Source: Solirubrobacteraceae bacterium (GTDB lineage: Bacteria; Actinomycetota; Thermoleophilia; Solirubrobacterales; Solirubrobacteraceae). Taken from it: a stretch of 57,403 bases of DNA. The position numbers and the translations under genes are program-made. The notes under the pieces were generated by a model. That model worked only from the letters and a program-made list of their open reading frames with translations, was not told the DNA's origin and did no database searches. Location: NCBI GenBank assembly GCA_024711025.1, contig JANJTP010000050.1, positions 1 to 57,403 on the forward strand, in the 5' to 3' direction. This document shows positions 24,467 to 46,748 of this stretch, piece by piece (the stretch's first letter is position 1; the number at the start of each line of letters is the position of its first letter).

Positions 24467-24491
24467 TATGACTCCGACTCCATACCATGAG

Positions 24492-24507
24492 CCTAACAAT
24501 CGTTAGG
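24492..24507. promoter_or_regulatory. TetR-type operator palindrome (site b)
   Basis: CCTAACAATCGTTAGG, one mismatch to perfect symmetry, placed 25 bp upstream of the dehydrogenase GTG start in the gap after the HyuB gene. Its position suggests binding near the promoter and blocking transcription. Same pattern as site a. Confidence 0.7.
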
Positions 24508-28478: not shown

Positions 28479-28512
28479 TGCTACCCCTGTGTTCGAGTTT
28501 TCCTGCGGACCG

Positions 28513-29262: not shown

Positions 29263-29264
29263 CT

Positions 29265-30302
29265 TCACAGCCTCCCCACTCGCCGCGAGGACCCGGGCGT
29301 AAGCCGGGAGAGCGCGATCGCCAGCACCAGAGCGGTGCCGTTGAACACCGGCTCGACCCACGACGGTACGCCGAGGATCTGCAGCCCGGAAACGCCCACG
29401 GCCAGCAGGTAGACCGAGACGACGACGCCCAGCGCGTTGAACCGGCCGAGCTGGAAGGCGGCGAGGCTGAGGAACGCCCCCGCGAACGCCGGTAGGAAGA
29501 AGCTCGCGTTCGCGGTCGGGTTGGCCGATCCTATGCGGGCCGTGAGGACGATGCCGGCGAAGGCGGCAAGCGTCCCCGCGGTGATCAGCGCGATCGCGCG
29601 CACGCGGCGCGTCGGGACCCCGGCGAGGCGGGCCGCCGACTCCCCGGCGCCGACCGCGTAGAGCAGTCGGCCCGCTGGGCGCCGATCGAGCACGAACCAG
29701 AGGACCAGCGCGATCACCGCCATGTAGATGACGGGTAGGCCGATGCCGGCGACGTCCGACGTCCCCAGGTCGGTCAGCGACCTCGGGATGCCCTCGAAGA
29801 TCGTGTTGCCTCCCGAGTAGAGGATGATCATGCCGCCGACGACCGAGTTGGTCCCGAGGGTCACGACGAACGACGGGAGGTCGAAGCGCACGATGAGGAG
29901 GGCGTGGATCGCGCCGATGGCCGCGCCGATCGCCAGCACGAGGACGATGACGAGCGGCACCGGGATCCCGGACTTCCCCGCCAGGCCGGCGGTGAGCATC
30001 GCCCCGAGCCCGAGCACGGCCGCCACCGACAGGTCGAAGTCGTTGGCGATCAGCGGGACCATGACCGCGAGCGCGAGGATCGTCAGGACGGCGTTCTCGA
30101 CGAGGATCGTCTTGAAGTTGTCGGTGGTCGCGAAGCTGTCCGGGCGCAGCAGGCTGAAGACCGCGATGAAGGCGGCGAGGAGCCCGAGCACGGCGAAGCG
30201 CGCCAGCGGTCGGCGCGTGGCCCCGGTCTGCCGGCGAGTCGGGGGCGGCGGGGGGTCGGCCGTCGCCGGGCGGGCGTTCACGGTGTCGATGTTCGCGTTC
30301 AC
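29265..30302 (-). CDS. ABC transporter permease (RbsC/BPD_transp_2 family)
   Basis: A 345-residue membrane protein with about 9-10 helices after a hydrophilic, Pro-rich N-terminus. RbsC-like landmarks are ILALAVMVPLIANDFDLSVA, PSFVVTLGTNSVVGGMIIL (normally PxFIxTLGxxxxxxG), YAVGAGESAARLAGVPTRRV (the EAA-like cytoplasmic loop that meets the ATPase) and ASFFLPAFAGAFLSLAAFQL. Such permeases import monosaccharides, polyols and some small amides or amines. It follows the ATPase gene by 8 nt; one permease gene suggests a homodimeric channel. Confidence 0.9.
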   Translation of the reverse strand: MNANIDTVNARPATADPPPPPTRRQTGATRRPLARFAVLGLLAAFIAVFSLLRPDSFATTDNFKTILVENAVLTILALAVMVPLIANDFDLSVAAVLGLGAMLTAGLAGKSGIPVPLVIVLVLAIGAAIGAIHALLIVRFDLPSFVVTLGTNSVVGGMIILYSGGNTIFEGIPRSLTDLGTSDVAGIGLPVIYMAVIALVLWFVLDRRPAGRLLYAVGAGESAARLAGVPTRRVRAIALITAGTLAAFAGIVLTARIGSANPTANASFFLPAFAGAFLSLAAFQLGRFNALGVVVSVYLLAVGVSGLQILGVPSWVEPVFNGTALVLAIALSRLTPGSSRRVGRL

Positions 30303-30310
30303 CTGCGCTC

Positions 30311-31810
30311 CTACTGCATCGCGGCGATGATCGCCTGGGTTCCGGTGCGTCCCTTGAAGCGCGCGACGATCCGGCCGTCGCGCAGGACGACGACGCGGTC
30401 GCAGATCGACGTGATCTCGTCCGGCTCGCCGCTGAGGAGCACGACGCTCAGGCCATCGGCGGCGTGGGACTCGATGCGCTCGAGGATCTGCGACTTAGCG
30501 TAGACGTCGACGCCCTGCGTGGGCTCCTCGGCGACCAGCACGTCGGGGGAGACGGCCAGCCAGCGCGCGAAGATGACCTTTTGCTGGTTGCCGCCGCTGA
30601 GGCTCGCCATCTCCGCTTCGGTGTCCGGCGGCTGGACCGCGAGCCGGTCGAACCACTCGCCGACCAGGCGGTGCTCGAGCGACCGGCTGAGCGCCCCGCG
30701 CCGAACGTACGAGCCGGGATGGGTGATCGTCGCGTTCTCCCTCGCCGTCAGCCCGGAGAGCACGGCTTCGCCGGGACGGTCGGCCGGGACGAACCCGACG
30801 CGTGTGACGTCCGCGGCCCTCAGCGACTTTCCGTGCAGTCGCACGACCCCGGCGGCCGGCGGCTGCCGTCCGCTGAGCAGGCGACCGAGCTCCTCAACGC
30901 CGCTGCCGGTGAGTCCCACGACGCCGAGCACCTCGCCACGGCCGACGCCGAGATCCACGTCACGGACGACCTCGCCGCAGGCGCCGTCCGCGACGAGCAC
31001 CACGTCGGACGGCTCGTCGGCCACCTGCTCCGCGCCCACCGAGTCCTGGCCCTCGAGCGCGCAGACGCGATCCAGCGGGCCGTCGACGTCGCCCACCATG
31101 CCCGTGACCAGGTCGGCGATCGTCAGGCCGTCCGCCGAGCCGCTGCTGATCACCCTGCCGTTGCGCAGGATCGTCACCTGGTCGGAGACGGCGAGCACCT
31201 CGCGCAGGCGGTGCGAGACGAAGAGGATCCCCAGGCCGTCGGCGGCGAGCGACCGGACGACCTCGAGCAAATGGCGGGTCTCCGACGCCGAGAGCGTCGA
31301 CGTCGGCTCATCGAGGACGAGCGCCGAGCAACGATCCCGCCGCTCCAGCGCGCGTGCGATCGCGACGATCGTCGCCTGCGCCCGCGTGAGCTCCGCGACG
31401 GGGAGGTCGACGCCGCCATCGAGGCCGAAGGGCGTGAGCACCTCGACGGCTCGCACCCGCTCGGCACGCCAGTCGATCGTGCCGCGGCGGGTCGCGACGC
31501 GCCGCCCGAGGGTGAGGTTCTCGAGCACGGAGAACTCCGGGATGAGCGCCAGATCCTGGTGCACGAACGCGATGTCCGCGTCCTCGTGCCCGTCGGCGCG
31601 TGCGCTCGAGACCGTGATCGTCCCCTCGTCGGGCCGGTGGTAGCCGGCCAGCACCTTGACGAGCGTCGACTTGCCGGACCCGTTCATGCCGATCAGAGCG
31701 TGGACGCTGCCGGGGTGGATCGTCAGATCCACCCCGGCGAGCGCCACGTTCGCCCCAAACCGCTTCGTGAGCCCGCGAACTTCGACTACGTGGCGGGCAT
31801 CCATCATCAC
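30311..31810 (-). CDS. Sugar-type ABC transporter ATPase with two nucleotide-binding domains
   Basis: A 499-residue RbsA/MglA-type ATPase. Half 1 has Walker A GMNGSGKST (about 40-48), a degenerate signature ELTRAQATIVAIARAL and Walker B ALVLDEPTSTL with the switch His in FVSHRLRE. Half 2 keeps the family's altered P-loop GLTGSGVEELGRL, a full signature SLSGGNQQKVIFARWL and the Walker B VLVAEEPTQGVDV with Glu-Glu. The second-half deviations are normal for this family. It powers the permease encoded next, and its start overlaps the binding-protein stop by 4 nt. Confidence 0.93.
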   Translation of the reverse strand: MMMDARHVVEVRGLTKRFGANVALAGVDLTIHPGSVHALIGMNGSGKSTLVKVLAGYHRPDEGTITVSSARADGHEDADIAFVHQDLALIPEFSVLENLTLGRRVATRRGTIDWRAERVRAVEVLTPFGLDGGVDLPVAELTRAQATIVAIARALERRDRCSALVLDEPTSTLSASETRHLLEVVRSLAADGLGILFVSHRLREVLAVSDQVTILRNGRVISSGSADGLTIADLVTGMVGDVDGPLDRVCALEGQDSVGAEQVADEPSDVVLVADGACGEVVRDVDLGVGRGEVLGVVGLTGSGVEELGRLLSGRQPPAAGVVRLHGKSLRAADVTRVGFVPADRPGEAVLSGLTARENATITHPGSYVRRGALSRSLEHRLVGEWFDRLAVQPPDTEAEMASLSGGNQQKVIFARWLAVSPDVLVAEEPTQGVDVYAKSQILERIESHAADGLSVVLLSGEPDEITSICDRVVVLRDGRIVARFKGRTGTQAIIAAMQ

Positions 31811-32946
31811 GCGGCGCTGTCGCTCCAGATCTCAGCGAAGTGCGACGCGTAGTCGACGTCCCCCGTCCATGCCTGGCCCTCCGGGATCTCGTCGATGTTC
31901 TCCTTCGTGATGAGCCGGATCGGCAGCTTCTGCTCGATCGGCTCCTGGCCGGCGAAGACCCGGTTGAGGTTGTCGAATGCGGCGTAGGTGCCCCACTCCT
32001 TGGCCTCAGCCGACGTCGCGGCGACCTTGCCGTCGCGAATGAGCTGCAGCCACGCCTTGATGCCGTTGTAGGCGCCCACGGTGACCTTCTCGCTCTCCGG
32101 GAGGTTCGGCACGGCGTTCAGCAGCGCGGCGTCGTACGGCGCGATGATCGTGGTGATGTTCGGGTGCTGCGCGAGCGCCGAGCTGATGAGCTGCGGAACG
32201 CGGGTCGGGCCCTCGGCCCCCGTGAAGTCGTCCTTCTTGACGATCTCGCACGTCGGGCATTCCTCGAACGCCTCCTGCGCGCCGACGATCTGCTCGACGC
32301 AGACCTTGAACTCCGGAGCGTTCAGCAGGTAGGCCGTGGCCTTGCCGCCGCCCTTCCATGCCGCGTAGTTGGCGAGGGACCGGCCCTGCGCCCGATAGTC
32401 GGAGCGGATGTCATAGACGACCCCCGTATCGGATTGCTCGTTGAAGCCGTCGAAGCTCCCCACGGGGATCCCGGCCTTCCGCGCCCTTTCGACCGCCCCG
32501 GACACCGCCTCGACCGCGATCGCGTCGAGGATGATCCCGTCGACCTTCTGGTCGACGGCCTGCTGGATCGCCTGGTTCCAGACGCGCTGGTCGAACTTGC
32601 CATCGACGACGTTGACGTCCCAGCCGAGCGCCTTGCCGGCCGCCTTGGCGGCATCGGCCGGCCGCTTGCACCCGTCAGCCGCGAAGCTGCACGACAGGAA
32701 CATGATTCGCTTGCCGCCGACGGCCTTCGGGCCTTCCGTCGGCCCGATCCACTCGGCCGTCGGCTCCATCGCCTTCTTGGCGGCGGCTTCGAACTGCGCG
32801 ACCGACGCCGCAGCGTCGCCGCCTGTCCCGTTGCCGCCCCCGGCCGAGCTCGAGCCGGATTTCGAGTCTGACCCGCAGGCGCCGACTCCAACACCCAGCA
32901 CCGCAGCGACGAGCACCATCCCGACGCGGCGCTTGCCTGTCCTCAT
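31807..32946 (-). CDS. Substrate-binding lipoprotein of the ABC importer
   Basis: A 379-residue type-1 periplasmic-binding protein. The signal is MRTGKRRVGMVLVAAVLGVG followed by the lipobox V-G-A-C with Cys 24, then a Gly/Ser linker. The mature part has RIMFLSCSFAADGC, DGIILDAIAVEAVSGAVERA and GIPVGSFDGFNEQSDTG, the layout of sugar-binding Peripla_BP_4 proteins. Four Cys of the mature domain (CSFAADGC; CEEC-like pairs in FKVCVEQIV and EECPTCEIVK) could form disulfides. First gene of a six-gene leftward operon (importer, SDR, HyuA, HyuB) with operator-like sites upstream at 33041 and 33236. The ligand is unknown. Confidence 0.9.
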   Translation of the reverse strand: MRTGKRRVGMVLVAAVLGVGVGACGSDSKSGSSSAGGGNGTGGDAAASVAQFEAAAKKAMEPTAEWIGPTEGPKAVGGKRIMFLSCSFAADGCKRPADAAKAAGKALGWDVNVVDGKFDQRVWNQAIQQAVDQKVDGIILDAIAVEAVSGAVERARKAGIPVGSFDGFNEQSDTGVVYDIRSDYRAQGRSLANYAAWKGGGKATAYLLNAPEFKVCVEQIVGAQEAFEECPTCEIVKKDDFTGAEGPTRVPQLISSALAQHPNITTIIAPYDAALLNAVPNLPESEKVTVGAYNGIKAWLQLIRDGKVAATSAEAKEWGTYAAFDNLNRVFAGQEPIEQKLPIRLITKENIDEIPEGQAWTGDVDYASHFAEIWSDSAA

Positions 32947-34654: not shown

Positions 34655-35404
34655 TCATTCGGCGTCGTAGCGAACGAGTCCCAGCGCGACGCCGCCGTCG
34701 ACGACAAGCGTCTGGCCGGTCGTGAAGCGAGCGCCGTCACCGAGCAGGAAGACGACGGCGGCCGCTATCTCGCCCGGCTCGACGAGACGGCCGAGTGGCG
34801 TATGACGCGCGATCCACTCTCCGTCGCGGTCGAGCGCCGCCGAGGTCAGCCCCGTACGCGCGAACCCCGGGGCGACGGAGTTGACGCGGACGCCGCGCTC
34901 GGCGACGGCGACCGCGAGAGCGCGTGTCGCGTGCTCCAGAGCGGCCTTGCTCGCAGCGTATGCCGGAGTCGGCCGGCCGGAGGTCGCGAGCACCGTTCGC
35001 CCCGCGATCGACGTGATGTTCACGATCGACCCGCCCGACGCCATCCGCTCCGCCGCCGCCTGCGCGATGAGCACGGGTGCGACGAGGTTGATGCGGAGCA
35101 GGCGCTCCCACTCCGCTGCGCTCGTGCGGCCGTGCTCCTCGCGCTCGGCCACGCCTGCGGCGTTCACGAGACCGTGGACGGGAAGGGGAAGCGCCGCGAC
35201 GCAGGCCGCGGCGCCTTCCGGGTCGGCGAGATCGAGCGCGAGCATGCTGCCGCCAAGGGTCGACGCGACTTCCGTCGCGGCCTTCGCGTCACGGTCGGCG
35301 ACGATGACCTGCGCGCCCGCCTGCGCCGTCTGGGCGGCGATCGCGGAGCCGAGCCCGCCGGCGCCGCCGACGACCAGGATCCTCCGTCCTTCGAGAGCGC
35401 TCAC
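34655..35404 (-). CDS. SDR-family oxidoreductase
   Basis: A 249-residue short-chain dehydrogenase. Cofactor motif ILVVGGAGGLGSAIAAQTAQ at about 8-27, VADRDAKAA (acidic residue after beta 2, suggesting NAD preference), LVNAAGVAE, catalytic Ser in VNITSIAGRT and Tyr/Lys in AYAASKAALEHATR. The end is FTTGQTLVVDGGVALGL. It lies 46 nt downstream of a second SDR in the operon headed by the broken permease. A role in oxidising a secondary alcohol to a ketone for the neighbouring carboxylase is plausible but unproven. Confidence 0.87.
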   Translation of the reverse strand: MSALEGRRILVVGGAGGLGSAIAAQTAQAGAQVIVADRDAKAATEVASTLGGSMLALDLADPEGAAACVAALPLPVHGLVNAAGVAEREEHGRTSAAEWERLLRINLVAPVLIAQAAAERMASGGSIVNITSIAGRTVLATSGRPTPAYAASKAALEHATRALAVAVAERGVRVNSVAPGFARTGLTSAALDRDGEWIARHTPLGRLVEPGEIAAAVVFLLGDGARFTTGQTLVVDGGVALGLVRYDAE

Positions 35405-35450: not shown

Positions 35451-36221
35451 TCAATGGACCTCGTGTCCGCCGGAGACGTTGATCGCCTGCCCGCTCACGA
35501 ATGCCGCGCCATCGCGGCAGAGGAAGCTCGCCACCTCGGCGACGTCCTCGGGCCTGGCCACGCGACCCATCGGGATCTCGGCGACGAAGGCCGCCCGCGC
35601 TGCAGACTCCGAGCCGACGTCGGGAAGGCGCGCGTAGGCGCCGGCGAGCTGCTCCATCATGTCGGTCGCCGTGATCGCCGGGCACACGGCGTTCACGGTG
35701 ACTCCCGTACCGGCGACCTCGAGCGCGAGCGACTGGGTCAATCCCACGAGTCCGAACTTCGACGCGCAATAGTGCGCGAGATAGGGCTCGCCGGTCTTCG
35801 CGGCGTCCGATGCGACGCTGACGATCCGTCCCCAGCCGCGGTCGACCATGCCGGGGACCACCGCCTTCGCGCAGAGGAACGCGCCGGTCAGGTTGACGGC
35901 GAGCACCCTGTTCCACTCCCGCTCCTCCAGCTCGACGACGGGCGCGACCGAGATCACGCCGGCGTTGTTCACCAGCACGTCGGGCGGCCCCAAGGCGGCG
36001 GAGGTGGTGGCGACCATCGCGGCGACCTGATCCGAGCGCGTGACGTCGCCGGGCGCGGCGACGGCCTTGCCGCCGCCATCCGCGATGGCGGCGGCGACGG
36101 CAAGGGCGAGCACCTCGTCCGCGTCGTTGACCGCCACCGCGAGCCCGTCCGCGGCAAGGCGCACTGCGATGGCGCGGCCGATTCCACGGCCCGCGCCCGT
36201 GACGAGCGCGACTCGGGACAC
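35451..36221 (-). CDS. SDR-family oxidoreductase
   Basis: A 256-residue short-chain dehydrogenase starting at a GTG (36219-36221) 2 nt after the permease stop. Cofactor motif ALVTGAGRGIGRAIAVRLA, then NDADEVLAL, LVNNAGVISV, catalytic Ser in IVSVASDAAKT and Tyr/Lys in HYCASKFGLVG. The C-terminal substrate loop (TATDMMEQLAGAYARLPDVG, then FVAEIPMGRVARPEDVAEVA) is longer than in the SDR at 34655, so the two are not recent duplicates. It ends FVSGQAINVSGGHEVH. Probably translated by coupling to the upstream gene. Confidence 0.87.
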   Translation of the reverse strand: MSRVALVTGAGRGIGRAIAVRLAADGLAVAVNDADEVLALAVAAAIADGGGKAVAAPGDVTRSDQVAAMVATTSAALGPPDVLVNNAGVISVAPVVELEEREWNRVLAVNLTGAFLCAKAVVPGMVDRGWGRIVSVASDAAKTGEPYLAHYCASKFGLVGLTQSLALEVAGTGVTVNAVCPAITATDMMEQLAGAYARLPDVGSESAARAAFVAEIPMGRVARPEDVAEVASFLCRDGAAFVSGQAINVSGGHEVH

Positions 36222-36223: not shown

Positions 36224-37643
36224 TCAGGTCAGGGTCGAGGGCGCCGGAGCAGCGACGGGGGCGACACCACCCTCGTGCTCGTCGGCATGCAGGTGCGATG
36301 CCACCTCGTCCGCCTCGGCGGCGGCGAGCGCGCTGCCGATCCGCTCGACCATCTCCGGACGGCGCTTGCGAGCGTGGAAGAGCAGCACCGTGCCGAGCGC
36401 GATCCAGCCGAGGTAGACGAACGGGAGCGCTCCGTAGATCCCGTCCTGGAGCGGGAAGACGCTGCGGTAGAGCGGATAGCAGAGGATCGCCGCTCCGAGC
36501 GCCGGGAGCACGCCGTGACGGAAGAGGCGGAACTCCCCGTTGCCACGCGTCCAGCGGATCAGCGCCAGGTTCGTCACTACGTACGAGACCAGGAACGCGA
36601 TCCCGATCAGGAAGCCGTAGTAGCCCCACGTTTCGAACGGGCCGACGGCGACCGCGAACGGGATGCTCATGACGAGGCACGCGACGACCATCGCGATGAT
36701 CGCCTTGTGCGGCGTGCCGCGGTGGGAGACGCCGCCGAGCCAGGCGCTGAGCACGCGCTCGCGGCCGAGGGTGTACACCACGCGGCAGCCGGCGTTGAAC
36801 GACGTCTGCGCGAAGGCGAGGATCGAGACACCGGCCGCAAAGACGATGATCGCGAGGCCGAAAGCGCCCCAGTACTTCTCGGCCACGGTCTGGATCGGCA
36901 CCGCGTCCTTGGCGAACGCGCCCTGGATGTCGGCGACGCCATAGCCCTGCACGAGCGCGTAGGAGACGAACACGTAGAACGTCGGGACGAGGATCGCCGT
37001 CACCCAGAGGCCCTTCGGGATGTTGTGCTTCGGCTTCTTCGTCTCCTCGCCCAGCGTCGCGCCCTCCTCGATGCCCACGTGGGAGAGGACCGCGAAGGTC
37101 ATCGCCAGTCCGAGGGCCGAGGCCCCGCCGCTCTGGATGGCGCTCGGACGGAACGGCGTCGTGCTCCACTCGCCGGGTCCGACCGTGACCAGCATCCAGA
37201 TCGCGAGCCCGATGAGCAGCACGACCTCGAAGGCCAGCATCGCGAGCGTCGCATGGAGCGTCTGCACGATCCCGAGCAAGCCAAGGATCGCGACGTAGCC
37301 GAGGCCACCGACGGTGAAGATCCACCACGGCACGTCGAGGCTGAACTGGCTCTGCAGGTACTCCGACATGAAGCCGCCGAAGATCGTGAAGCCGCCGCGC
37401 GAACTCCGCGAACGAGTTGACCAGGATCAGGACCGCCGGCCAGATGAGGACGAACGCGAGCACGAGCGCCGCGCCCGCGAACTGCCCCATGAAGGGGATG
37501 TTGAGCGCGATCGTCGCCGCGGGCCCGCAGCCCGCGACCGACAGGATCGCCACATGCCGCCAGTCGACCGTGTTGCGCTTCAGCTGGGGTTGACCCACCT
37601 GGTCCGGACTCGTTGCGGCAGGGGTTGCCGTCGACGCCATCAT
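36224..37643 (-). pseudogene. APC-family amino acid/amine permease, broken by deletion and frameshift
   Basis: The gene starts at an ATG (37641-37643) with a strong ribosome binding site (GGGGAGGTGAG) and encodes MMASTATPAATSPDQ..., the cytoplasmic LKRNTVDWRHVAIL segment and the first helices to LVNSFAEFARR. At about 37391-37400 the frame shifts. The other frame continues GGFTIFGGFMSEYLQ to 36224 with the rest of an APC transporter (VLSHVGIEEGATLGEETKKP, AGCRVVYTLGRERVL, GTPHKAIIAMV). The usual A-G-G/S-F-Y-x-Y-x-x-R-G-L-G stretch and the next helix are missing, so about 40-50 codons seem lost, joined at a GC-rich CGGCGG microhomology. It is first in an operon with two SDRs and would have imported an amine or amino acid. 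Confidence 0.75.
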
Positions 37644-37662: not shown

Positions 37663-37678
37663 ACGAACGCTCGTTAGA
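37663..37678. promoter_or_regulatory. TetR-type operator palindrome (site e)
   Basis: ACGAACGCTCGTTAGA, 20 bp upstream of the permease ATG. The first 15 bases are identical to site f at 44101. A lone half-site TCTAACG follows at 37680-37686, and a weaker site occurs at 37730-37745 (minus strand ACGAACGTCCGTCCGG). This gap separates the permease operon from the end of the carboxylase operon. Confidence 0.7.
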
Positions 37679-37754: not shown

Positions 37755-38591
37755 TCATATGTTGAGCATCTCGCGCGCCTGGGCCGGCGTCGCCACCGAA
37801 CGGCCGAGGACCGCGCAGTCGGCCGCGGTGCGTGCCACGAGCTCCGCGTTCGAAGCTGCCAAGCGCCCGCGCTCCACGTACACGCCGTCCTCGAACCCGG
37901 TTCGCAGGCAGGTCGCCCCCATGAGCGCCCCCAGCGCCAGCAGGCGGCGCTGATGGCGCCCGATCGCGGTGACGCCCCACGTGCACGCGTCCGGCACCGC
38001 GGACGCCAGCATCGCGAGATTGCGGTGCGTCGCGGCAAGCGCACCGGGAACGCCCAGCACCAGGTTGAAGCGCAGCGGCTCGGGCAGGGTGCCGTCCACC
38101 GCGAACGCGAGCGCCGCCTCGACGTGGCTGAGCTCGAACGCCTCGACCTCCAGGGCGATCCCGAGCTCACCCGCCGCACGTGCGATCGCGCGCGTCTCTG
38201 CGGGCGTCGTGGGAAAGAGCTCCTCACCGAAGTTGGTCGAGCCGGTCTCGATGCCGGCCATCTCCGGCGCCGCCCGCAGGCCTGCCGCCCGCTCGTCGAC
38301 GGACATCCCGATCGCACCGCCGGTGCTGACCATCGTGATGATGTCGCAGCCGCCGCGGATCAGCTCGATCGCCTCGGCGAACAGCTCCGGTCGCGCGCTC
38401 GGTGCTCCGTCCGGCTCGCGCACGTGCAGGTGGGCGATCGCCGCCCCGGCGGCGTGCGCGGCGATGACCTCGTCCGCGATCTCCCGCGGCGTGTAGGGGA
38501 CGGCGGGGTTGTCCTCCCGCGTCACCTCCGCGCCGGTCGGCGCCACGACGATCGCGACGGGCCGGGACGCCCAATCCGTCTCGCGGATCAC
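37755..38591 (-). CDS. Beta-keto acid cleavage enzyme (BKACE/Kce, DUF849)
   Basis: A 278-residue TIM-barrel protein of the BKACE family, which joins a beta-keto acid with acetyl-CoA and releases acetoacetate and a new acyl-CoA. Markers are VAIVVAPTGAEVTREDNPAVP, the zinc site HLHVREPDG (His 54, His 56), CDIITMVSTGGAIGMSVDER, TGSTNFGEELFP and GHMMx-like LALGALMGATCLRTGFEDGVY, where RxGxEDxxY is conserved. The founding member cleaves 3-keto-5-aminohexanoate in lysine fermentation. The GTG at 38591 overlaps the upstream stop (GTGA). Last of a five-gene coupled operon with the ketone carboxylase. Its presence implies that the carboxylated product is a beta-keto acid other than acetoacetate. Confidence 0.9.
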   Translation of the reverse strand: MIRETDWASRPVAIVVAPTGAEVTREDNPAVPYTPREIADEVIAAHAAGAAIAHLHVREPDGAPSARPELFAEAIELIRGGCDIITMVSTGGAIGMSVDERAAGLRAAPEMAGIETGSTNFGEELFPTTPAETRAIARAAGELGIALEVEAFELSHVEAALAFAVDGTLPEPLRFNLVLGVPGALAATHRNLAMLASAVPDACTWGVTAIGRHQRRLLALGALMGATCLRTGFEDGVYVERGRLAASNAELVARTAADCAVLGRSVATPAQAREMLNI

Positions 38592-39295
38592 GAGCGCGCC
38601 GCTTCCACGAGCGATCGAAACGAGCCGAGCTGAGCCTCGTCGAACTCGGGGGCCATGAGCTCGGGATGCCATTGGATCCCGCGCACGCGCCCGGCGGCGT
38701 CCTCGATGGCCTCGATCGTCCCGTCCGGCGACCAGCCGACCGGCTCGAGACCCCGGCCCAGGCGGTCGACGGCCTGGTGATGGACGCTGTTGACCTCGAG
38801 CGTCGTGGTGCCATAGGCCCGAGCGATCGCCGAGCCCTCGAGAAGTCGAACGGGGTGCGCCGGGCAGTCGTGCGGATCGTCGATGCGGTGGGTCAGCTCG
38901 CTCACGTCCGGGAGGTGCTGCACCAGTGTCCCGCCCAAGGCGACGTTGAGCACGTGGATCCCCCGGCAGACGCCGAGCACCGGGAGGTCGCGCGCGATCG
39001 CCTCGCTCACGAGCGCGATCTCGAAGCGGTCGCGCTCGCCGTCGACCCAGTAGAGCTCCTCGTGAGCATCCGCCCCGTACTGCGCCGGATCGACGTCGCC
39101 GCCTCCGTTGAGCACCAGCGCATCGATCCGCGCCGCGAGCGCCGCCGGATCTGCCGACTCGTCGGCGTAGACCGGCGTTCCGCCCGCCTGCGCGATGAGG
39201 TCGCCAAAGCGCCGGTGAACGGTGGCATGCGGGCTCGGCCCGGGCAGGGTCGACGTGAGCGTGCGCGTGATCGCGGTGACGGCGACCAGCGTCAT
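38588..39295 (-). CDS. PuuD-like gamma-glutamyl amide hydrolase (class I GATase fold)
   Basis: A 235-residue protein of the peptidase C26 family. The catalytic triad is visible: Cys 110 in LPVLGVCRGIHVLNVALGG, His 210 and Glu 212 in IRGIQWHPELMAPEF. Other landmarks are DALVLNGGGDVDPAQYG, RDRFEIALVSEAI, EVNSVHHQAVDRLG and WSPDGTIEAIED, all typical of gamma-glutamyl-gamma-aminobutyrate hydrolase PuuD. Such enzymes release glutamate from gamma-glutamylated amines. The matching ligase is probably the glutamine-synthetase-like protein at 44888-46309. Start and stop overlap neighbouring genes by 4 nt. Confidence 0.9.
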   Translation of the reverse strand: MTLVAVTAITRTLTSTLPGPSPHATVHRRFGDLIAQAGGTPVYADESADPAALAARIDALVLNGGGDVDPAQYGADAHEELYWVDGERDRFEIALVSEAIARDLPVLGVCRGIHVLNVALGGTLVQHLPDVSELTHRIDDPHDCPAHPVRLLEGSAIARAYGTTTLEVNSVHHQAVDRLGRGLEPVGWSPDGTIEAIEDAAGRVRGIQWHPELMAPEFDEAQLGSFRSLVEAARS

Positions 39296-39750
39296 TCGGC
39301 TGTCTCGCTCAGCGCCGGCTCGAAGTTCATGATGAACGGGTAGCCGATCGGCACGACCTCGACGTCGAGGCGCGTCGCGCAGCTCGGGCAGTAGAACTCG
39401 CGCAACACCATCCAGTCCGGATCTGCGGCCCGCGGGCCCGGGAAGAACGGCGTCTCGCCTTCGCGCTCGATCACGGCCGCGGCATGCTTCCAGTTGCGCC
39501 GGTGGTCGCCGAAGTCGTGGCCGCAGCGGCAGCGGACCACACGCTCTCCGTCATCCCGTCGCACGATGAAGAGCGCCTCCTGGAGGCAGACGAGGATCGG
39601 GTCGTCGAATGCGACGCGCTGCTGCTCGAGCCCGATGACCATCTCCTGGCGACCGGCATCCTTCGGCGCCCGCTGGATCGCCTGCAGGTCGTCGGACGAG
39701 ATCGACCCGTCGAGCAGGTCGTGGATCAGCTCGGCCGGATACTCGGTCAT
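39292..39750 (-). CDS. Acetone-carboxylase gamma-like subunit (AcxC type)
   Basis: A 152-residue protein. The N-terminal part (LLDGSISSDDLQAIQRAPKD) is helical. Cys and His residues are then grouped as VRCRCGHDFGDHRRNWKHAA and LREFYCPSCATRLDVEVVP, a likely zinc-ribbon-type site also present in acetone carboxylase gamma subunits, which are about 165 residues. The gamma subunit is found with carboxylases and not with simple hydantoinases, so it is the best evidence that this operon encodes a ketone carboxylase. It overlaps both neighbours by 4 nt. Confidence 0.85.
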   Translation of the reverse strand: MTEYPAELIHDLLDGSISSDDLQAIQRAPKDAGRQEMVIGLEQQRVAFDDPILVCLQEALFIVRRDDGERVVRCRCGHDFGDHRRNWKHAAAVIEREGETPFFPGPRAADPDWMVLREFYCPSCATRLDVEVVPIGYPFIMNFEPALSETAE

Positions 39751-41921
39751 CGGGCCACCTCGGGGTCGGGGATCAGGAAGTCGTCGTCGAGCTCCCAGAA
39801 CTCGCGCATGTGCGCGGCGAAGCGGGGGCTGTTCTCGAGCAGGTCGTTGTACATCCGCCGCGTCGGCGTCGAGACGTCGCCCGCGACGAGGCGAGCGCGC
39901 GCGCGGGCGCGGTACTCATCCGCCGGGATCGCCTCGGCCAGCCGCTGCCGTCGGCGCTCGGCGCGCAGCCGCTCGGTCCCCTCGCGATCGACATCGCCCG
40001 CCTCCGTCAGCGCGACGCAGTACTCCTCGCGTGCGGCGCGACGGCTCGTGCGCTCGTCGCGCACGTCGCGCGCGACGGCCTCGGGGTCGCGGTCGATCGA
40101 GTCGCCGTAGCCGCCGCCGTCGCCGCTGACCGCGGTGAACATGTCGTACGCCTTCATCGGCTCGGTGCGCTTGTTCGCCCCGTGGTGAACCGTCCACTCG
40201 CCCTCGACGAGCTCCACGAAAGCGGGGTTGGCGGGATCGTCGCCCTCGCCGTCGGGAATCGGCCGCCGCGCGGCCGCGACCTCGGCGAGGTTCGTGCCCT
40301 TGCCGGTCCACATGTAGAGCGTCGCCGCCGGATGGCCGCCCATCAGGCCCGGCGACGGGTAGATCGGCACCGACCCGAACGAGCCGACCTCGATGTCGCT
40401 CGTGTTGGCGAGCATGTACAGCGACTGGATGCCGTTGCCGCCGCGGAACTTGCCGGCGCCGCCGCCGTCCATCCGCATCCGCCGCGACAGGTAGACGCTC
40501 GGCAGCATCTGCTCCCAGATCTCGGCATCGCCCATGTCGCCCTCGGGGTTGAACTCCACGCCGGAGGTGTCCAGGCCGTCGGCGACGCCGGTCGCCGGCA
40601 TGCCCGCGGCGCCGAACTCCATGTTGTGCGCCCCGAAGGAGCGGCCGTACTGGTCGATCCCGCCGGCCGTGTAGCCGCACGAGAGGGCGCTCGAAGCGTG
40701 GACCTCCTCGCGGTAGCCCTGGGCGAAGAAGGCCCGCGAGAGCGCCTGCCCGACGGCGAGCCCGGCGCCGTACGCCGGCCCCCAGAGCGTCGTCGGGTAG
40801 AGGATCGAGGGCGGGTTGCAGCAGGTCCCGAAGGGGACGTCCAGCGTCGCCGCGAGCAGCGTGCCCTCGTTCGTGCGGCTGTCGTAGAGGACGTGCTGGA
40901 TGAGGCCGTTCATGACGAGGCCCTCGAGGCACGAGAGGCTGCCCTGGAAGGGCTGCCAGGCGGCCGACGAGAGGCCGTCGAAGCTCAGGTGGATCGAGCC
41001 GTCCTCGCGCACGGTGAGCTCGACCGGGGCGTGCAGCAGGCGCTCGTCGCCGGGGATCGGCGACCCGCGCCAGGCGACCTCCCGGTAGACGCCCGGATGC
41101 AGGACCGCGGCGATCTTGCGCTTCGCGGCCCGCAGGCTGTCCTCGATGAACTCCTCCGAGGCGCGCTGGAAGTACTCGAGGCCGTACTCGGCGATCAGCT
41201 CCTTTACGTGCTCGCGGATCATCAGCGAGCCGGTGACCTTCGCCCGGTTGTCGGTCAGCCAGTAGACCGGGGTGCGCGTGCTGCGCTCGACGAGGAGCTC
41301 GAAGTCACGGCGCAGCTCGTCGTTCTCCCCGATCTTCACGCACGGGAGGTAGAGGCCCTCGTGGAAGCGATTGGTGAAATAGGAGTCGAAGCCGCCCGGC
41401 GCCGTCGCCCCGACCTCCGGGACGTGCGTGAGCCCCGCCGCCCACCCGACGAGCTCGCCGTCGACGACGATCGGTGTGACGATCATCTGGTCGAGCGCGT
41501 GCGCGCCGCCGATGTAGGGATCGTTGTTGAAGTAGATGTCCCCCTCGCGGAAGCCCATCGTCTTCTCGTAGTCGTTCTCGATCATCCACTTGATCATCCG
41601 GCTGATCGTGTGGACGTGGACGATGAGCCCGTGCGAGAGGGCGATCGCGTCGCCGTCGGGCGTGTAGAGGCCGAAGATCAGCTCCCCGAGCTCGCGCGTC
41701 ATCGGCGAGGCGGAGACGAGCCGCGCCACCTCGTGCGCGTTGGCCACGACCTGCGAGAGCTTCGTGTAGAGAAGCTCGAAGCGGATCGGGTCCTCCTCCC
41801 AGAGGCGCAGCTCGTCGACGTATGCTCCTGTCCTGGTGAAGCGCTCGGTGCGCTCGTGCAGGAGCTGCTTGAGCGTGTCTGCGGCCACAGTGGCGCTCGC
41901 TTCCGTGGTCATGATGTTCAC
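39747..41921 (-). CDS. Acetone-carboxylase alpha-like subunit (HyuB family, AcxB type)
   Basis: A 724-residue HyuB-family protein, longer than the HyuB at 24580 and closer in layout to acetone-carboxylase alpha. The metal region reads NNDPYIGGAHALDQMIVTPI followed by AGLTHVPEVGATAPGGFDSY, giving the His/Asp/His set in the carboxylase-like HxxxDQ context. Other landmarks are FHEGLYLPCVKIG, CCNPPSILYPTTLWGPAYGAG and RMRMDGGGAGKFRGGNGIQSLY, then GDGGGYGDSIDRDPEAVARD. It should bind metal and join bicarbonate-derived CO2 to the enol phosphate. I kept the GTG at 41921 (AGGAGG 9-14 nt before); an ATG lies at 41912. Confidence 0.9.
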   Translation of the reverse strand: MNIMTTEASATVAADTLKQLLHERTERFTRTGAYVDELRLWEEDPIRFELLYTKLSQVVANAHEVARLVSASPMTRELGELIFGLYTPDGDAIALSHGLIVHVHTISRMIKWMIENDYEKTMGFREGDIYFNNDPYIGGAHALDQMIVTPIVVDGELVGWAAGLTHVPEVGATAPGGFDSYFTNRFHEGLYLPCVKIGENDELRRDFELLVERSTRTPVYWLTDNRAKVTGSLMIREHVKELIAEYGLEYFQRASEEFIEDSLRAAKRKIAAVLHPGVYREVAWRGSPIPGDERLLHAPVELTVREDGSIHLSFDGLSSAAWQPFQGSLSCLEGLVMNGLIQHVLYDSRTNEGTLLAATLDVPFGTCCNPPSILYPTTLWGPAYGAGLAVGQALSRAFFAQGYREEVHASSALSCGYTAGGIDQYGRSFGAHNMEFGAAGMPATGVADGLDTSGVEFNPEGDMGDAEIWEQMLPSVYLSRRMRMDGGGAGKFRGGNGIQSLYMLANTSDIEVGSFGSVPIYPSPGLMGGHPAATLYMWTGKGTNLAEVAAARRPIPDGEGDDPANPAFVELVEGEWTVHHGANKRTEPMKAYDMFTAVSGDGGGYGDSIDRDPEAVARDVRDERTSRRAAREEYCVALTEAGDVDREGTERLRAERRRQRLAEAIPADEYRARARARLVAGDVSTPTRRMYNDLLENSPRFAAHMREFWELDDDFLIPDPEVAR

Positions 41922-41933
41922 CGAATCGCCTCC

Positions 41934-44072
41934 TCAGGCCTTTACGCTCATCCAGATGCTGCGGTACTCGTCCATATGGACGCTGCGGCCCGGTGGGACG
42001 ACGACCGTGGTGTAGGCGTTCTCGAGCACGGCCGGTCCGTCCACGCGGTTGCCGGGGCGCAGCTCGTCGACGCTGAAGATCGACGCCTGGGCCCACTCCC
42101 CGTCGAAGTACGCGGGGCGGGTGCCGACGCGCGCGTCGGTGGCGGGCCGCTCGCCCGAGAGCTCGTGCCGGCGCAGGCGCGGGCGGATCTTCGGCGCGCG
42201 GACGACGAGCCCGACCTCGAAGAGGTCGAAGCCCGCCTGGGGGTATCGCGCCGCGCGCGAGTACGTCTGCGAGTACTGGGCCTCGAAGGCGTCGATCAGC
42301 GCACGCCAGTCGTCGACCGAGTCGATCCGCTCGCGCGGCGAGTCGACGACGAGGTCGTTGAGCTGGCGCCCGTAGCGGAGCATCGCCTGATGGCGGTACT
42401 CGAGCCGGGCGGGGTCGAAGCCCTCGAGCTCCATCTGCTCGGTCGCCCGTGCCCGCAGGCGATCCCAGACCTCGGTGACCCGCGCGGCGACCTCCAGGAG
42501 GTCGTCGTCGCTCGCGTCGGGCGGGATGACGAGGTTGAGCGACTGCGAGTAGTGGTGCTCGTAATCGGCGGCGGCGGCGCCGAACGCGGAGAAGACCGAC
42601 GAGTAGGGGAACATGATGATCCCGCTCAACGGCACGCCGTCGGTGTAGCCGGCGACGTGGCCCGGGCCGCCCCCGCCGAACGCGAGCAGCGTGTACTCCG
42701 ACATGTCGAACCCGCGCGAGACGACCAGGCCGTAGATCGACTCGCGCATCCGCGTGTCGATGATGCGGCGAACGCCGAGCGCGGCGTCCTCGACGGTGAG
42801 GCCGAGCGGCTCGGCGATCTTCTCGCGGATCGCTCGCCGGGCGCCGTCGACGTCGAGATCCATCTGCCCGCCGGCGAAGCGAGCGGGGTTGAGGAGGCCG
42901 AGCACGACGTTGGCGTCGGTCACGGTCGGCTCGGTCCCGCCGCGGCCGTAGCAGACGGGCCCCGGGTCGGCGCCCGCGCTCTCGTGGCCGACGACGAGTC
43001 GGCCGGTGAGGGGATCGATGCCGGCGATCGTCCCGCCGCCGGCGCCGATCGAGACCACCTCGGCGATCGGCACGCCGAGCACGAATCGACCGACGGTCGG
43101 CTCGCGATTGACCGCGACGTTGCCGTTGGTGATCAGCCCGAGGTCGAACGAGGTGCCGCCGACGTCGGTCGTGATGATGTTGCGCAGGCCATACGTCTCG
43201 CCGATGAAGCGGCCGCCGACGAGCCCGCCCACGGGGCCGGACTGGATGGTCTCGACGACGCGGACGGAGCGCGCCGGCGCGAGCCCTCCGGCGGACTGCA
43301 TCACCTGGAGCTCGCCGTCGAAGCCGCCGCGCTTCAGCTCGTCCTCGAGATTGGCGAACGCGCGCTTGACGAGCGGGCCGGCGTACGCCTCGAAGGTCGC
43401 GGCGTTCGCGCGCGGGAGCTCGCGGATGACGGGCGAGACCTCGTGCGAGGTCACGACGGGCCCGTCGACCCCTCGCCGCGCGAGGACCTCGCGCGCGATC
43501 TCCGCGGCCCGCGCCTCGTGCGCGTCGTTGAGGAAGGACCACAGGAAGCAGACGACGATCGCGTCGGCCCCCGCGTCCAGCAGCTCCTCGACGGCCTGCT
43601 CGACATCGGCTTCGTAGAGCGGGATCTGCTCGGCGCCGAGGCAGTCGACCCGCTCGGTGACGCCACGGACGCGGCCGAACGGGATCAGGGGCTCGAGCAT
43701 CCGGTGGGTCACCGGATGGATCCGCGCCGGGCGATCCAGCTCGGTCCAGCTCTGCTTGCCGCGCCCCATGGCGAGGAGGTGCTCGAAGCCGCGCGTCACG
43801 ATGAGGCCGGGAGCTCCGCCGCGGCGGGTCAGCACGGTGTTGAGCGCAACGGTCGCGCCGTAGCCGAGGACGCGCAGCGACGACAGCGTCTCGCGCACCG
43901 GGAGGCCCATCTCGTCGGCGGCGCGCTCGATCGCGCGGAAGAAGCCGCGGCTCACATCGTCGGGGGTGCTGGGCGCCTTGGCGGTGGCGAACTCACCGTC
44001 CGCGTCGACCAGGAAGGCGTCCGTGAACGTACCTCCGACATCGATGTAGCAGAGCTCAGGCTGCCGTCCCAT
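41934..44072 (-). CDS. Acetone-carboxylase beta-like subunit (HyuA family, AcxA type)
   Basis: A 712-residue HyuA-family ATPase. The phosphate loop is LCYIDVGGTFTDAFLVDADG near residue 7, followed by YGATVALNTVLTRRGGAPGL, QSAGGLAPARSVRVVETIQS, TTDVGGTSFDLGLITNG, GAGGGTIAGIDPLTGRLVVG and CYGRGGTEPTVTDANVVLGL. In acetone and acetophenone carboxylases this subunit phosphorylates the ketone enol and bicarbonate at the cost of ATP. The ATG has AGGAG 10-14 nt upstream. First gene of the five-gene coupled operon; the palindrome at 44101-44116 lies 29 bp before its start. Confidence 0.92.
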   Translation of the reverse strand: MGRQPELCYIDVGGTFTDAFLVDADGEFATAKAPSTPDDVSRGFFRAIERAADEMGLPVRETLSSLRVLGYGATVALNTVLTRRGGAPGLIVTRGFEHLLAMGRGKQSWTELDRPARIHPVTHRMLEPLIPFGRVRGVTERVDCLGAEQIPLYEADVEQAVEELLDAGADAIVVCFLWSFLNDAHEARAAEIAREVLARRGVDGPVVTSHEVSPVIRELPRANAATFEAYAGPLVKRAFANLEDELKRGGFDGELQVMQSAGGLAPARSVRVVETIQSGPVGGLVGGRFIGETYGLRNIITTDVGGTSFDLGLITNGNVAVNREPTVGRFVLGVPIAEVVSIGAGGGTIAGIDPLTGRLVVGHESAGADPGPVCYGRGGTEPTVTDANVVLGLLNPARFAGGQMDLDVDGARRAIREKIAEPLGLTVEDAALGVRRIIDTRMRESIYGLVVSRGFDMSEYTLLAFGGGGPGHVAGYTDGVPLSGIIMFPYSSVFSAFGAAAADYEHHYSQSLNLVIPPDASDDDLLEVAARVTEVWDRLRARATEQMELEGFDPARLEYRHQAMLRYGRQLNDLVVDSPRERIDSVDDWRALIDAFEAQYSQTYSRAARYPQAGFDLFEVGLVVRAPKIRPRLRRHELSGERPATDARVGTRPAYFDGEWAQASIFSVDELRPGNRVDGPAVLENAYTTVVVPPGRSVHMDEYRSIWMSVKA

Positions 44073-44100
44073 TCAGTCTCTCCTCAAAGCCTATTGACGA

Positions 44101-44116
44101 ACGAACGCTCGTTAGC
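44101..44116. promoter_or_regulatory. TetR-type operator palindrome (site f)
   Basis: ACGAACGCTCGTTAGC, 29 bp upstream of the carboxylase beta gene and sharing its first 15 bases with site e. It lies with site g in the divergent gap between the carboxylase operon and the TetR gene. Confidence 0.72.
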
Positions 44117-44203
44117 TAGGGTCAAGCTAGCATTCGGTTCGGGAGGATGTCAAGCGGATAGCTTGCTCATCTGCGGGGTTTGCTGGATAGGCTCTCCTCG
44201 CGC

Positions 44204-44219
44204 CCTAACGAACGTTCGG
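44204..44219. promoter_or_regulatory. TetR-type operator palindrome (site g)
   Basis: CCTAACGAACGTTCGG, one mismatch to symmetry. It reaches to within 9 bp of the TetR start and overlaps the first bases of its GGAG ribosome binding site, so binding there would give tight autorepression of the TetR-ligase-lyase operon. Confidence 0.72.
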
Positions 44220-44228
44220 AGTGACGAA

Positions 44229-44879
44229 TTGGGAACACAGGCAGAATTGTCCACGGTGGAGCGCCTCGAGGAGACGGCGCTCGACTGCTTCACGGAGCTT
44301 GGCTTCCATGCCACCTCGATGCGGACGATCGCCGCACGGGTGGAGGTCCGCCCGGCGTCGCTCTACCACTGGTTCCCCAGCAAGCAGGCGCTCCTGCAGG
44401 CGCTCATGACGCGCTTCCTCGAGGGCCTCACCCGCGAGGTGCTACAGGTGCTCGACGAGCACGCGACGCCGGTGCGGCGACTTGCGGCCGCGGCGTGGGT
44501 GCACGTCGTCTACCACGGCGTCCATCGCCGTGCCGCGTTCGTCAGCGACACCGAGGTGCGCGCGCTCGAGGGCGGGAACGCGGAAGCGATCATGCGCCTG
44601 CGCGACTCATACGAGCAGATCATCCGGCAATTGATCAGCGACGGCGTCGCCTCGGGGGACTTCGAGTGCCGAGACGTCCGCGTCGCTACGAAGGCGATCC
44701 TCCTGCAGTGCACGGGCGTAGCCGTCTGGTACCGGCCGAACGGCCCGTTCACGCTGCCGGAGATAGCCGAGATGCACGTCGAGCTCGTGCTCAACTCGCT
44801 GCGAGTCGACGTGCCGGTCGGCAGCGCCGCGGAGCTGCTCGGCGACCGCCGACCGATCGCAGTCACGACAGAGGAGTGA
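44229..44879 (+). CDS. TetR-family transcriptional regulator
   Basis: A 216-residue protein with the helix-turn-helix at about 11-57: LEETALDCFTELGFHATSMR, TIAARVEVRPASLYHWF and PSKQALLQALM. The C-terminal ligand domain is helical (WVHVVYHGVHRRAAFVSD; RLRDSYEQIIRQLISDGVA; KAILLQCTGVAVWYRP), a KstR/FadR-like TetR_C arrangement. There is no ATG; I chose the TTG at 44229 because GGAG lies 7 nt upstream, with a GTG at 44256 as alternative. It is divergent from the carboxylase operon with two palindromes between. First of a rightward three-gene operon with the glutamylamide ligase (8 nt later) and the ammonia-lyase. It is the best candidate for the regulator of all NCKAACG sites, but the other TetR cannot be excluded. 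Confidence 0.87.
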   Translation: MGTQAELSTVERLEETALDCFTELGFHATSMRTIAARVEVRPASLYHWFPSKQALLQALMTRFLEGLTREVLQVLDEHATPVRRLAAAAWVHVVYHGVHRRAAFVSDTEVRALEGGNAEAIMRLRDSYEQIIRQLISDGVASGDFECRDVRVATKAILLQCTGVAVWYRPNGPFTLPEIAEMHVELVLNSLRVDVPVGSAAELLGDRRPIAVTTEE

Positions 44880-44887
44880 GGGACACG

Positions 44888-46309
44888 ATGCACAGGACCG
44901 CCGAGGCGCAGGCCACGCCGGCCTTCCGCGATCACGACGTCGAGGCCGCGATCGCGTTCTTGGAGGAGCGCGACATCGACACGCTGATCGTCGCGGGCAG
45001 CGACACCCATGGGGTCATGCGGGGCAAGCGCGTTCCGATCGCCGAGGCGCCGCGCGCGCTGGCGGACGGGATCAACCTGTGCAACGTCATGTGGGTGATC
45101 GACGTGGCCGAGCGCGACTTCGTTCCGTGCCCGGACGGGGTCGACGGCTACTTCCCGACCGAGCGCAACGGCTACCCGGACATGCGGCTGGTCCCCGACC
45201 TCGCAACGCTCCGCGTCGTTCCGTGGCACGAGCGCACGGCGCTTGTGCTGGGAGACTTCTCGACGCCGGACGGCGATCCGGTGCCCATCGCGCCGCGGAC
45301 GGTCCTGTCCCGACTCGTCCAGCGCGCACGTGCGCTGGGCCTCGAGCCGCACACGGCGATCGAGCTCGAGTTCTACGCGCTGCGGGAGACGACCGAGTCG
45401 CTCGTCGGCAAGGGATCCGCGCAGCTCGTGCCGTACAGCCTGCGACCCGCGACGTACGGCGTCGTCAGCGGCTCGGCGCAGGAGCCCCTCACGCGCGTCG
45501 TACGCGAGGGGATGCGGGCATTCGGAGTGCCGATAGAGGCGTGCAACCCCGAGACGGGACCCGGCCAGTTCGAGATCAACCTCCGACACGACGAGACGCT
45601 CACGGCCGCCGACCACGCCTTCCTCTTCAAGAGCGGCGTCAAGGAGCTGGCCGCCCGGATGGGTCTTACCGCGACATTCATGGCGAAGCCTCACCCGGAG
45701 TGGTCCGGCAACTCCTGCCATGCGCACATGAGCATGACGCGCGACGGGAGGAACGCCTTCGCGGCCGGCGGCGACGAGCCCGGGGCGATGTCGGCGACGA
45801 TGCGCTCGGCCGCGGCCGGCATGATCGCGACGCTGGCGGAGCTGACCGCGGTGATCGCCCCGACGATCAACTCGTATCGTCGCTTCCGGCCCTACTCGTG
45901 GGGTGGCACGACCGCGACCTGGGGTGTCGACAACCGCACCGTCGGCATCCGCGCCGTCTGCGAGACGCCGGCGGGCACGCGGCTGGAGCACCGCCAGGGC
46001 GGTGGCGACGCGAACCCGTACCTCGTCGCTGCGGCGATGCTCGCCGGGGCACTGCACGGCATCGAGCACCGACTGGAGCCGCCGATGCTCCGCGAGGACG
46101 ACGTCTACGCGCTGCCGGCCGGCGAGGTCGAGCAGGCGCCGACGTCGCTTGCGCAGGCGACGGAGGCGCTCGACCGCAGCGCCGTGGCACGTACGTACCT
46201 GGGCGACGACTTCGTCGACCACTACGTCGCGATGAAGCGCGCGGAGATCACAGCCGCGAACGAGGCCGTCACCGACTGGGAGATCGACCGCTACCTCGAG
46301 AGCGTGTAG
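44888..46309 (+). CDS. Glutamine-synthetase-like gamma-glutamylamide ligase
   Basis: A 473-residue GS-fold protein. Landmarks are AGSDTHGVMRGKRVPIAEA, the catalytic-core EIEFYAL, NPETGPGQFEINLRHDETL, FMAKPHPEWSGNSCHAHMSM (the ATP/metal His motif), SYRRFRPYSWGGTTATWGVD and RLEHRQGGGDANPYL. The G-x-x-R-GK N-terminus and loops resemble PuuA/IpuC-type enzymes, which glutamylate amines with ATP, more than housekeeping GlnA, which has a longer N-terminal beta-grasp and the NLFLPEKD adenylylation loop. A PuuD-like hydrolase in the divergent operon could remove the glutamate again. The ATG at 44888 lies 8 nt after the TetR stop. The amine substrate is unknown. Confidence 0.88.
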   Translation: MHRTAEAQATPAFRDHDVEAAIAFLEERDIDTLIVAGSDTHGVMRGKRVPIAEAPRALADGINLCNVMWVIDVAERDFVPCPDGVDGYFPTERNGYPDMRLVPDLATLRVVPWHERTALVLGDFSTPDGDPVPIAPRTVLSRLVQRARALGLEPHTAIELEFYALRETTESLVGKGSAQLVPYSLRPATYGVVSGSAQEPLTRVVREGMRAFGVPIEACNPETGPGQFEINLRHDETLTAADHAFLFKSGVKELAARMGLTATFMAKPHPEWSGNSCHAHMSMTRDGRNAFAAGGDEPGAMSATMRSAAAGMIATLAELTAVIAPTINSYRRFRPYSWGGTTATWGVDNRTVGIRAVCETPAGTRLEHRQGGGDANPYLVAAAMLAGALHGIEHRLEPPMLREDDVYALPAGEVEQAPTSLAQATEALDRSAVARTYLGDDFVDHYVAMKRAEITAANEAVTDWEIDRYLESV

Positions 46310-46313: not shown

Positions 46314-46748
46314 ATGAGCGACCTGCGCGAAACCGCCCACAACTCCGAAGCCCCGGCCGCCCTGCTGCGCGTCCGAATGTCGTCGTCGGAGGCTCGCTAC
46401 GCCGGCGGCCTCGTCGACGGCGCATCGATCACCGCGCTGTTCGGCGACCTCGCCACCGAGCTGTCGATTCGCCACGACGGCGACGAGGGGCTCTTCCGTG
46501 CCTACGAGGAGATCGAGTTCCTCGCCCCCGTACGCGCCGGTGACTACATCGAGGCGCGCGCGTGGATGCTGCACGTGGGCCACACGTCGAGGCGTGTCGC
46601 GTTCGAGGCGTGGAAGCAGATCACGGCTGAGCCCGAGGCCGGCGACTCTGCCGCGGCGGTCCTGCCCGCGCCCGTGCTCGTCGCGCGGGCCGTCGGGACC
46701 GTCGTCACGCCACTCGAGCGTCAGCGTCGACTACCCACCACGGCCTGA
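46314..46748 (+). CDS. Beta-aminoacyl-CoA ammonia-lyase (Kal/Acl-like hotdog protein)
   Basis: A 144-residue hotdog-fold protein: RVRMSSSEARYAGGLVDGAS, ITALFGDLATELSIRHDGD, GLFRAYEEIEFLAPVRAGDY and VGHTSRRVAFEAWKQI. This order (MS-x-x-(D/E)-A-x-Y-x-G-x-L-V-x-G, GD-x-x-TEL, Y-x-x-(I/V)EF-x-APV-x-x-GD, FEA-x-K) is what I recall for beta-alanyl-CoA:ammonia-lyase and for 3-aminobutyryl-CoA ammonia-lyase of lysine fermentation, of the same length (about 130-145). It would remove ammonia from a beta-aminoacyl-CoA to give an enoyl-CoA, the step right after BKACE. It starts 4 nt after the ligase stop. A generic thioesterase-like role is the alternative. Confidence 0.82.
   Translation: MSDLRETAHNSEAPAALLRVRMSSSEARYAGGLVDGASITALFGDLATELSIRHDGDEGLFRAYEEIEFLAPVRAGDYIEARAWMLHVGHTSRRVAFEAWKQITAEPEAGDSAAAVLPAPVLVARAVGTVVTPLERQRRLPTTA

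Follow-up and report, generated by a model that had tools for sequence, protein, structure and literature searches.

A glutamine synthetase-like ligase and a PuuD-like hydrolase encoded with an acetone-carboxylase-type complex: a putative amino-ketone catabolic cluster in a Solirubrobacteraceae bacterium

What purpose does gamma-glutamylation of an amine serve at a locus that encodes the first and last enzymes of a Puu-like pathway but not its intermediate ones? The question is raised by a 57,403-nucleotide stretch of Solirubrobacteraceae DNA (contig JANJTP010000050.1 of assembly GCA_024711025.1; hereafter the window), which is contig C57 of a 3.14-Mb genome (G000) that is 97% complete. A first-pass annotation placed a glutamine synthetase (GS)-like ligase and a PuuD-like hydrolase on opposite sides of one divergent promoter, noted that PuuB and PuuC were missing, and suggested that glutamylation protects an amine during reactions other than amine oxidation. 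The layout is as described: 156 bp (44073–44228) separate hyuA (start 44072, minus strand) from tetR (start 44229, plus strand), with the hydrolase as the fourth gene of the minus-strand unit hyuA-hyuB-acxG-puuD-bkace and the ligase as the second of the plus-strand unit tetR-GS-KAL. PuuB and PuuC are indeed missing from the contig, as none of the 27 PuuB-type (DAO family) or 13 PuuC-type (ALDH family) matches in the genome lies on C57. The ligase start given earlier, 44495, is too early and overlaps tetR in another frame; ATG 44888 is the likely start. We propose that these genes form a catabolic cluster under TetR control whose substrate is an amino-ketone, or an amino-alcohol oxidized to one, and which acts through glutamylation followed by ketone carboxylation (rough probability 0.5).

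The key step is probably the carboxylation. The alpha, beta, and gamma subunits of HyuA-HyuB-AcxG are encoded together in the window, and on sequence evidence this is an acetone-carboxylase-type enzyme, because acetone carboxylase gives the highest scores, the gamma subunit is complete, and the Mn ligands are kept (Table 1; 6yra is a comparison entry of the 5-oxoprolinase/hydantoinase type). In the alpha subunit of Xanthobacter acetone carboxylase the Mn ligands are His150, Asp153, His175, and Glu89, as given in an excerpt of PMC5543143. These residues of 5svb align with H141, D144, H166, and E80 of the window HyuB (four of four kept), all of which are invariant across a seven-sequence alignment containing one partial row.

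Table 1. Features of the cluster and its flank in the window
Feature	Coordinates	Strand	Evidence
Carboxylase beta subunit (HyuA type)	41934..44072	-	acetone carboxylase beta 5m45_B 515 bits vs 6yra_A 347
Carboxylase alpha subunit (HyuB type)	39747..41921	-	acetone carboxylase alpha 5svb_A 456 bits vs 6yra_B 89
Carboxylase gamma subunit (acxG)	39292..39750	-	PF08882 97 bits; 5svb_C matched full length; CxC + CPxC kept
GS-like gamma-glutamyl amine ligase (putative)	44888..46309	+	PF00120 329 bits (genome profile search); catalytic-site motifs kept, GYEAP Glu absent
PuuD-like gamma-glutamyl amide hydrolase (putative)	38588..39295	-	PF07722 193 bits, E=7e-57; NF008471 78 bits
BKACE, Kce-like beta-keto acid cleavage enzyme	37755..38591	-	PF05853 278 bits; start chosen at GTG 38591
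KAL, 3-aminobutyryl-CoA ammonia lyase (hotdog fold)	46314..46748	+	NF052388 162.4 bits, cut-off 160
TetR-A regulator	44229..44879	+	TetR_N + TetR_C_24; lies between promoter and ligase
Operator-like palindrome upstream of hyuA	44102..44115	.	same place in RSA11 L081 4199
Operator-like palindrome upstream of tetR-GS-KAL	44205..44218	.	same place in RSA11 L081 4316
Operator-like palindrome upstream of APC-SDR1-SDR2	37664..37677	.	same place in RSA11 L187 1075/1090
APC-type permease	36224..37643	-	AA_permease_2; frame interrupted near 37369 vs RSA11 homologue
SDR1 oxidoreductase (3-hydroxybutyrate/acetoin type, under cut-offs)	35451..36221	-	
SDR2 oxidoreductase	34655..35404	-	

The ligase likely uses an amine. 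Its motifs for the metal and glutamate sites are intact, but the GYEAP motif is without its flap Glu, which we take to mark the ammonia-using glutamine synthetases; the residue is present in the true GlnA of this genome (on C29) and absent from all ten other GS-like rows compared. Given its absence, the substrate can fairly be guessed to be an amine and not ammonia, and a true ammonia-using GS is unlikely. Among NCBIfam profiles the ligase matches type III GS (260 bits) and gamma-glutamylputrescine synthetase (248 bits), both under cut-off; the PuuA equivalog NF045547 gives 248 bits against a cut-off of 650. The hydrolase likewise falls short of the PuuD equivalog NF008471 (cut-off 266), although the stretches that we presume to carry the catalytic Cys (GVCRGIHVLN) and His/Glu (QWHPEL) of the class I GATase triad are intact in the alignments. 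A true Puu putrescine pathway, which has in common with this locus a GS-like ligase and a PF07722 hydrolase, was rejected, since both proteins lie far under the PuuA and PuuD cut-offs and the contig carries neither DAO- nor ALDH-family genes.

The set of genes is conserved in one other genome. We searched for the alpha subunit in 299 genomes of the class, in 232 genomes of the order, and in a species-genome collection; this last scan gave 211 stretches with 145 relatives, the best 80 of which were kept, and used two peptide patterns only, so that distant members may escape it. Across these searches there is a single close relative, in the RSA11 metagenome-assembled genome (G310), with 84% identity. 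In RSA11 the whole set is split over two contigs with its gene order kept, L081 (hyuB-hyuA-tetR-GS-KAL) and L187 (hyuB-acxG-puuD-bkace-APC), both of which break off within hyuB. Identities to the window proteins are 84% for HyuB, 81% for HyuA, 75% for BKACE and AcxG, 73% for KAL, 67% for GS, 65% for APC, and 58% for PuuD. Outside RSA11 no relative in the class search or the best 80 of the species scan exceeds about 41% identity to the window alpha subunit, and all 78 relatives in plasmid records are under 60%. A GS, PuuD, or KAL neighbor occurs at 6 of those 80 loci.

The two divergent units and the permease unit also share operator-like sites. Allowing up to one mismatch, CTAACGNNCGTTNG has 12 strand matches (6 sites) in the window, compared with 0.51 expected and a maximum of 3 in shuffled sequence, and in the window genome as in RSA11, palindromes of this type precede hyuA, tetR, and APC. 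The looser motif CGAACGNNCG shows no excess above chance. The ligase, hydrolase, carboxylase, BKACE, and KAL genes are thus apparently co-regulated.

A link to lysine fermentation is suggested by BKACE and KAL. The best solved relative of the window BKACE is Kce (2y7d), and the Glu of the TGAE motif, presumably the amine contact of Kce, is present in the BKACE proteins of the window, RSA11, and two further genomes, G047 and G346 (as NGAE in G346), and absent from a BKACE on contig C99 of G310. In G047, KDD is encoded with a TetR, a KAL, and a BKACE that are 55% (over 184 aa), 65%, and 57% identical to those of the window, while in G346 KDD, BKACE, and KAL are adjacent and both its Kce (406 bits) and its KAL exceed their cut-offs. 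The KDD matches themselves, with 197 bits in G047 and 191 in G346, are slightly under the cut-off of 200. Profile searches of the window genome and RSA11 found no KDD in either. Because KDD accompanies the relatives of KAL and BKACE in G047 and G346, and that of TetR in G047, while the two genomes with our cluster lack it, BKACE and KAL look to be derived from a 3-keto-5-aminohexanoate module, with the carboxylase as another route to that kind of substrate. The window looks like such a module in which KDD is replaced by the ligase, carboxylase, and hydrolase. It resembles the KDD-Kce-KAL system in its Kce-like BKACE, its KAL, and its TetR, and differs in these replacements and in a BKACE that scores under the Kce cut-off.

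The G047 cluster itself (G047:C4; L220/L239) has TetR-KAL divergent from a Pot-type transporter, a hydantoinase-type HyuA/HyuB, KDD, and BKACE, followed by an aminotransferase-like gene. It combines a KDD-Kce-KAL set with a lactamase-type enzyme.

From the gene set, the protein families, the kept residues, the conservation in a second genome, and the operator-like sites, we infer the following order of steps. The GS-like ligase would spend ATP to link the gamma-carboxyl of glutamate to the amine, and the acetone-carboxylase-type complex would carboxylate the capped molecule at its methyl ketone, giving a gamma-glutamyl-amino beta-keto acid. The PuuD-like enzyme would then take off the glutamate; we infer this position because the substrates of Kce-like BKACE and KAL in the known lysine route are free amines. 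BKACE would convert the free amino-beta-keto acid and acetyl-CoA to a 3-aminoacyl-CoA and acetoacetate, and KAL would remove ammonia to leave an enoyl-CoA. Beta-amino methyl ketones are the most likely substrates, for example 4-aminopentan-2-one or 4-aminobutan-2-one, and the glutamyl cap would either prevent side reactions or serve as a handle for the carboxylase.

The idea that glutamylation prepares an amine for something other than oxidation is therefore right in spirit, as the neighboring enzymes are an acetone-carboxylase-type complex, a BKACE, and an ammonia lyase, conserved and apparently co-regulated. It is sharpened here to ketone carboxylation, with protection kept as a hypothesis, and amended in that a tetR gene occupies the divergent region and PuuD would not act last, BKACE and KAL coming after it.

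Ligase, hydrolase, and carboxylase genes also occur together elsewhere in this genome, which has three loci for the acetone carboxylase gamma subunit (PF08882), ten GS-family matches, and five PuuD-like matches. All three PF08882 loci have both a GS and a PuuD within 15 kb, a condition that about 3.0% of the genome satisfies; the rough P of 3e-5 treats the three loci as independent, although two belong to the same type. These two (type 2, on contigs C62 and C14) comprise GS, PuuD, a CoA-transferase III, HyuA, and a HyuB-AcxG fusion. C62 additionally has a polyamine-type ABC transporter and, just downstream, a DAO-family oxidoreductase gene, and C14 a thiolase, a GlmL-family protein, and a B12-binding protein. 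The last of these (L037 13065-16315) has 590 residues, with a C-terminal B12-binding domain and an N-terminal part without a Pfam match, and is encoded beside the GlmL-family protein.

A tree of 97 carboxylase alpha rows, made after removal of 12 duplicates and exclusion of rows scoring below 300 bits or shorter than 450 residues, places the partnership in two separate positions. GS or PuuD neighbors occur at 10 rows: the window and RSA11, where they accompany BKACE, and eight rows of a single nine-row clade, where they accompany CoA-transferase III. The ninth row of that clade (L094) stops at a contig edge, and the other 86 rows lack GS and PuuD, some of their loci being cut by contig ends. 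The tree is a quick one with SH-aLRT support only, and the window branch is among several flagged as long. In the second clade the carboxylases pair with GS and CoA-transferase III, several with PuuD and some with a thiolase; here the CoA-transferase and, in some clusters, the thiolase would do the job of BKACE as a two-step equivalent. Tentatively, and at somewhat short of even odds, the gamma-glutamyl group may act in the ATP-dependent C-carboxylation of amino-ketones as a protecting group that can be taken off again, or as a handle for recognition. Such a use would have arisen two or more times in related Actinobacteria: in the window and RSA11 together with BKACE and KAL taken from the 3-keto-5-aminohexanoate module, and in type 2 together with CoA-transferase III, in some cases with thiolase.

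Several points weigh against the proposed pathway. The window arrangement (type 1) is found in one genome besides its own among the 232 of the order, the third order-wide match (G731) being 40% identical. The window BKACE reaches 293 bits against the Kce profile NF052387, under its cut-off of 382; KAL barely exceeds its own cut-off, and the RSA11 KAL (159.2 bits) is slightly below it. Relative to the open RSA11 homologue on L187, the window permease has its N-terminal part in another frame and a stretch missing, which reflects decay or an assembly error. SDR1 has no close match in RSA11 (83% complete), so an SDR step as a conserved part of the pathway is unsupported. The DAO-family gene next to the type 2 cluster on C62 means that not every such cluster avoids enzymes of the amine oxidase family. 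We know of no source of 4-aminopentan-2-one, and a literature search on six names of beta-amino-ketones and amino-alcohols gave just two papers, each with a single mention, and no pathway of this kind as judged by titles and the beginnings of abstracts. The reading as a whole is drawn from sequence, and the activities of the enzymes are predicted. Finally, according to excerpts of PMC11335346, a GAT-like enzyme turns gamma-glutamylanilide back into aniline and so limits its level.

That last behavior favors the strongest alternative, in which the carboxylase takes a free ketone and passes its product straight to BKACE, while the ligase and PuuD serve a different amine or balance free and capped amine, as is reported for AtdA2. 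So does G731 (C427; L238), where HyuA-HyuB-AcxG is directly followed by BKACE with no ligase on the 5-kb contig, an arrangement that represents carboxylase and BKACE as a module of their own, as does the lack of a GS or PuuD neighbor at 87 of the 97 tree rows. We nevertheless consider this alternative unlikely, given that ligase, hydrolase, and carboxylase pair in two separate clades and at all three gamma loci of the genome, and that the ligase and carboxylase units have operator-like sites in common in two genomes. Less probable still is a route from aminoacetone or 1-amino-2-propanol, in which an SDR would oxidize the capped amino-alcohol, carboxylation and BKACE would lead to glycyl-CoA, and the KAL-like protein would be a thioesterase. 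Aminoacetone is natural and reactive, and two SDR genes lie in a co-regulated unit, but KAL scores above its family cut-off, the relatives of KAL and BKACE occur together with KDD and so indicate a 3-aminoacyl-CoA, and SDR1 was not found in RSA11. We rejected, as very improbable, an ATP-dependent amide or lactam hydrolase of the 5-oxoprolinase/hydantoinase type (recycling, for example, 5-oxoproline from gamma-glutamyl compounds), which belongs to the same superfamily and is represented in the window by a second, caprolactamase-type HyuA/HyuB pair at 24580-28478, on the grounds that acetone carboxylase is by far the best match, the gamma subunit is complete, and every Mn ligand is kept.

Among known systems, to our knowledge, gamma-glutamyl amine routes end in amine oxidation or ring dioxygenation. 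If glutamylation followed by ketone carboxylation is correct, a C-C bond-forming reaction would be added to this chemistry, relatives of acetone carboxylase would gain a class of nitrogenous substrates, several uncharacterized clusters in environmental Actinobacteria would acquire a testable function, and the ten GS-family matches in a genome of about 3.1 Mb would be easier to explain. The principle itself is not new, as glutamylation precedes a step other than amine oxidation in the degradation of aniline and 1-naphthylamine, according to the same excerpts (PMC11335346). The cluster shares with AtdA1-A2 and NpaA1-A2 a GS-like ligase that would cap the amine, a neighboring gene for a GATase-like hydrolase, and a following step that would be something other than amine oxidation. 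In those systems the capped amine passes to a Rieske dioxygenase, whereas the window encodes an ATP-dependent carboxylase, BKACE, and KAL, and its annotated genes include no dioxygenase, of the Rieske type or other. The three subunits, the metal ligands, and the Cys motifs of the gamma subunit are shared with acetone carboxylase (AcxABC), from which the window differs in its distant alpha subunit and in an operon that includes a hydrolase and BKACE and is divergent from a ligase. A literature search of titles and abstract beginnings found no description of the combination of ligase, carboxylase, and BKACE.

The remaining three of the six palindrome sites (22184, 24493, and 33042) lie outside the cluster. 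A single regulon covering 18.9-46.7 kb was considered but is not claimed, because a second TetR (22410-23177) may own these sites. The region at 18890-24499, which includes this TetR and the first two sites, encodes E1/E2 2-oxoacid dehydrogenase genes and a glutamate dehydrogenase, and is possibly a related regulon. Next to it, at 24580-32946, the caprolactamase-type HyuA/HyuB pair shares an operon with an SDR and a ribose-type ABC transporter; this operon has its own palindrome upstream at 33042.

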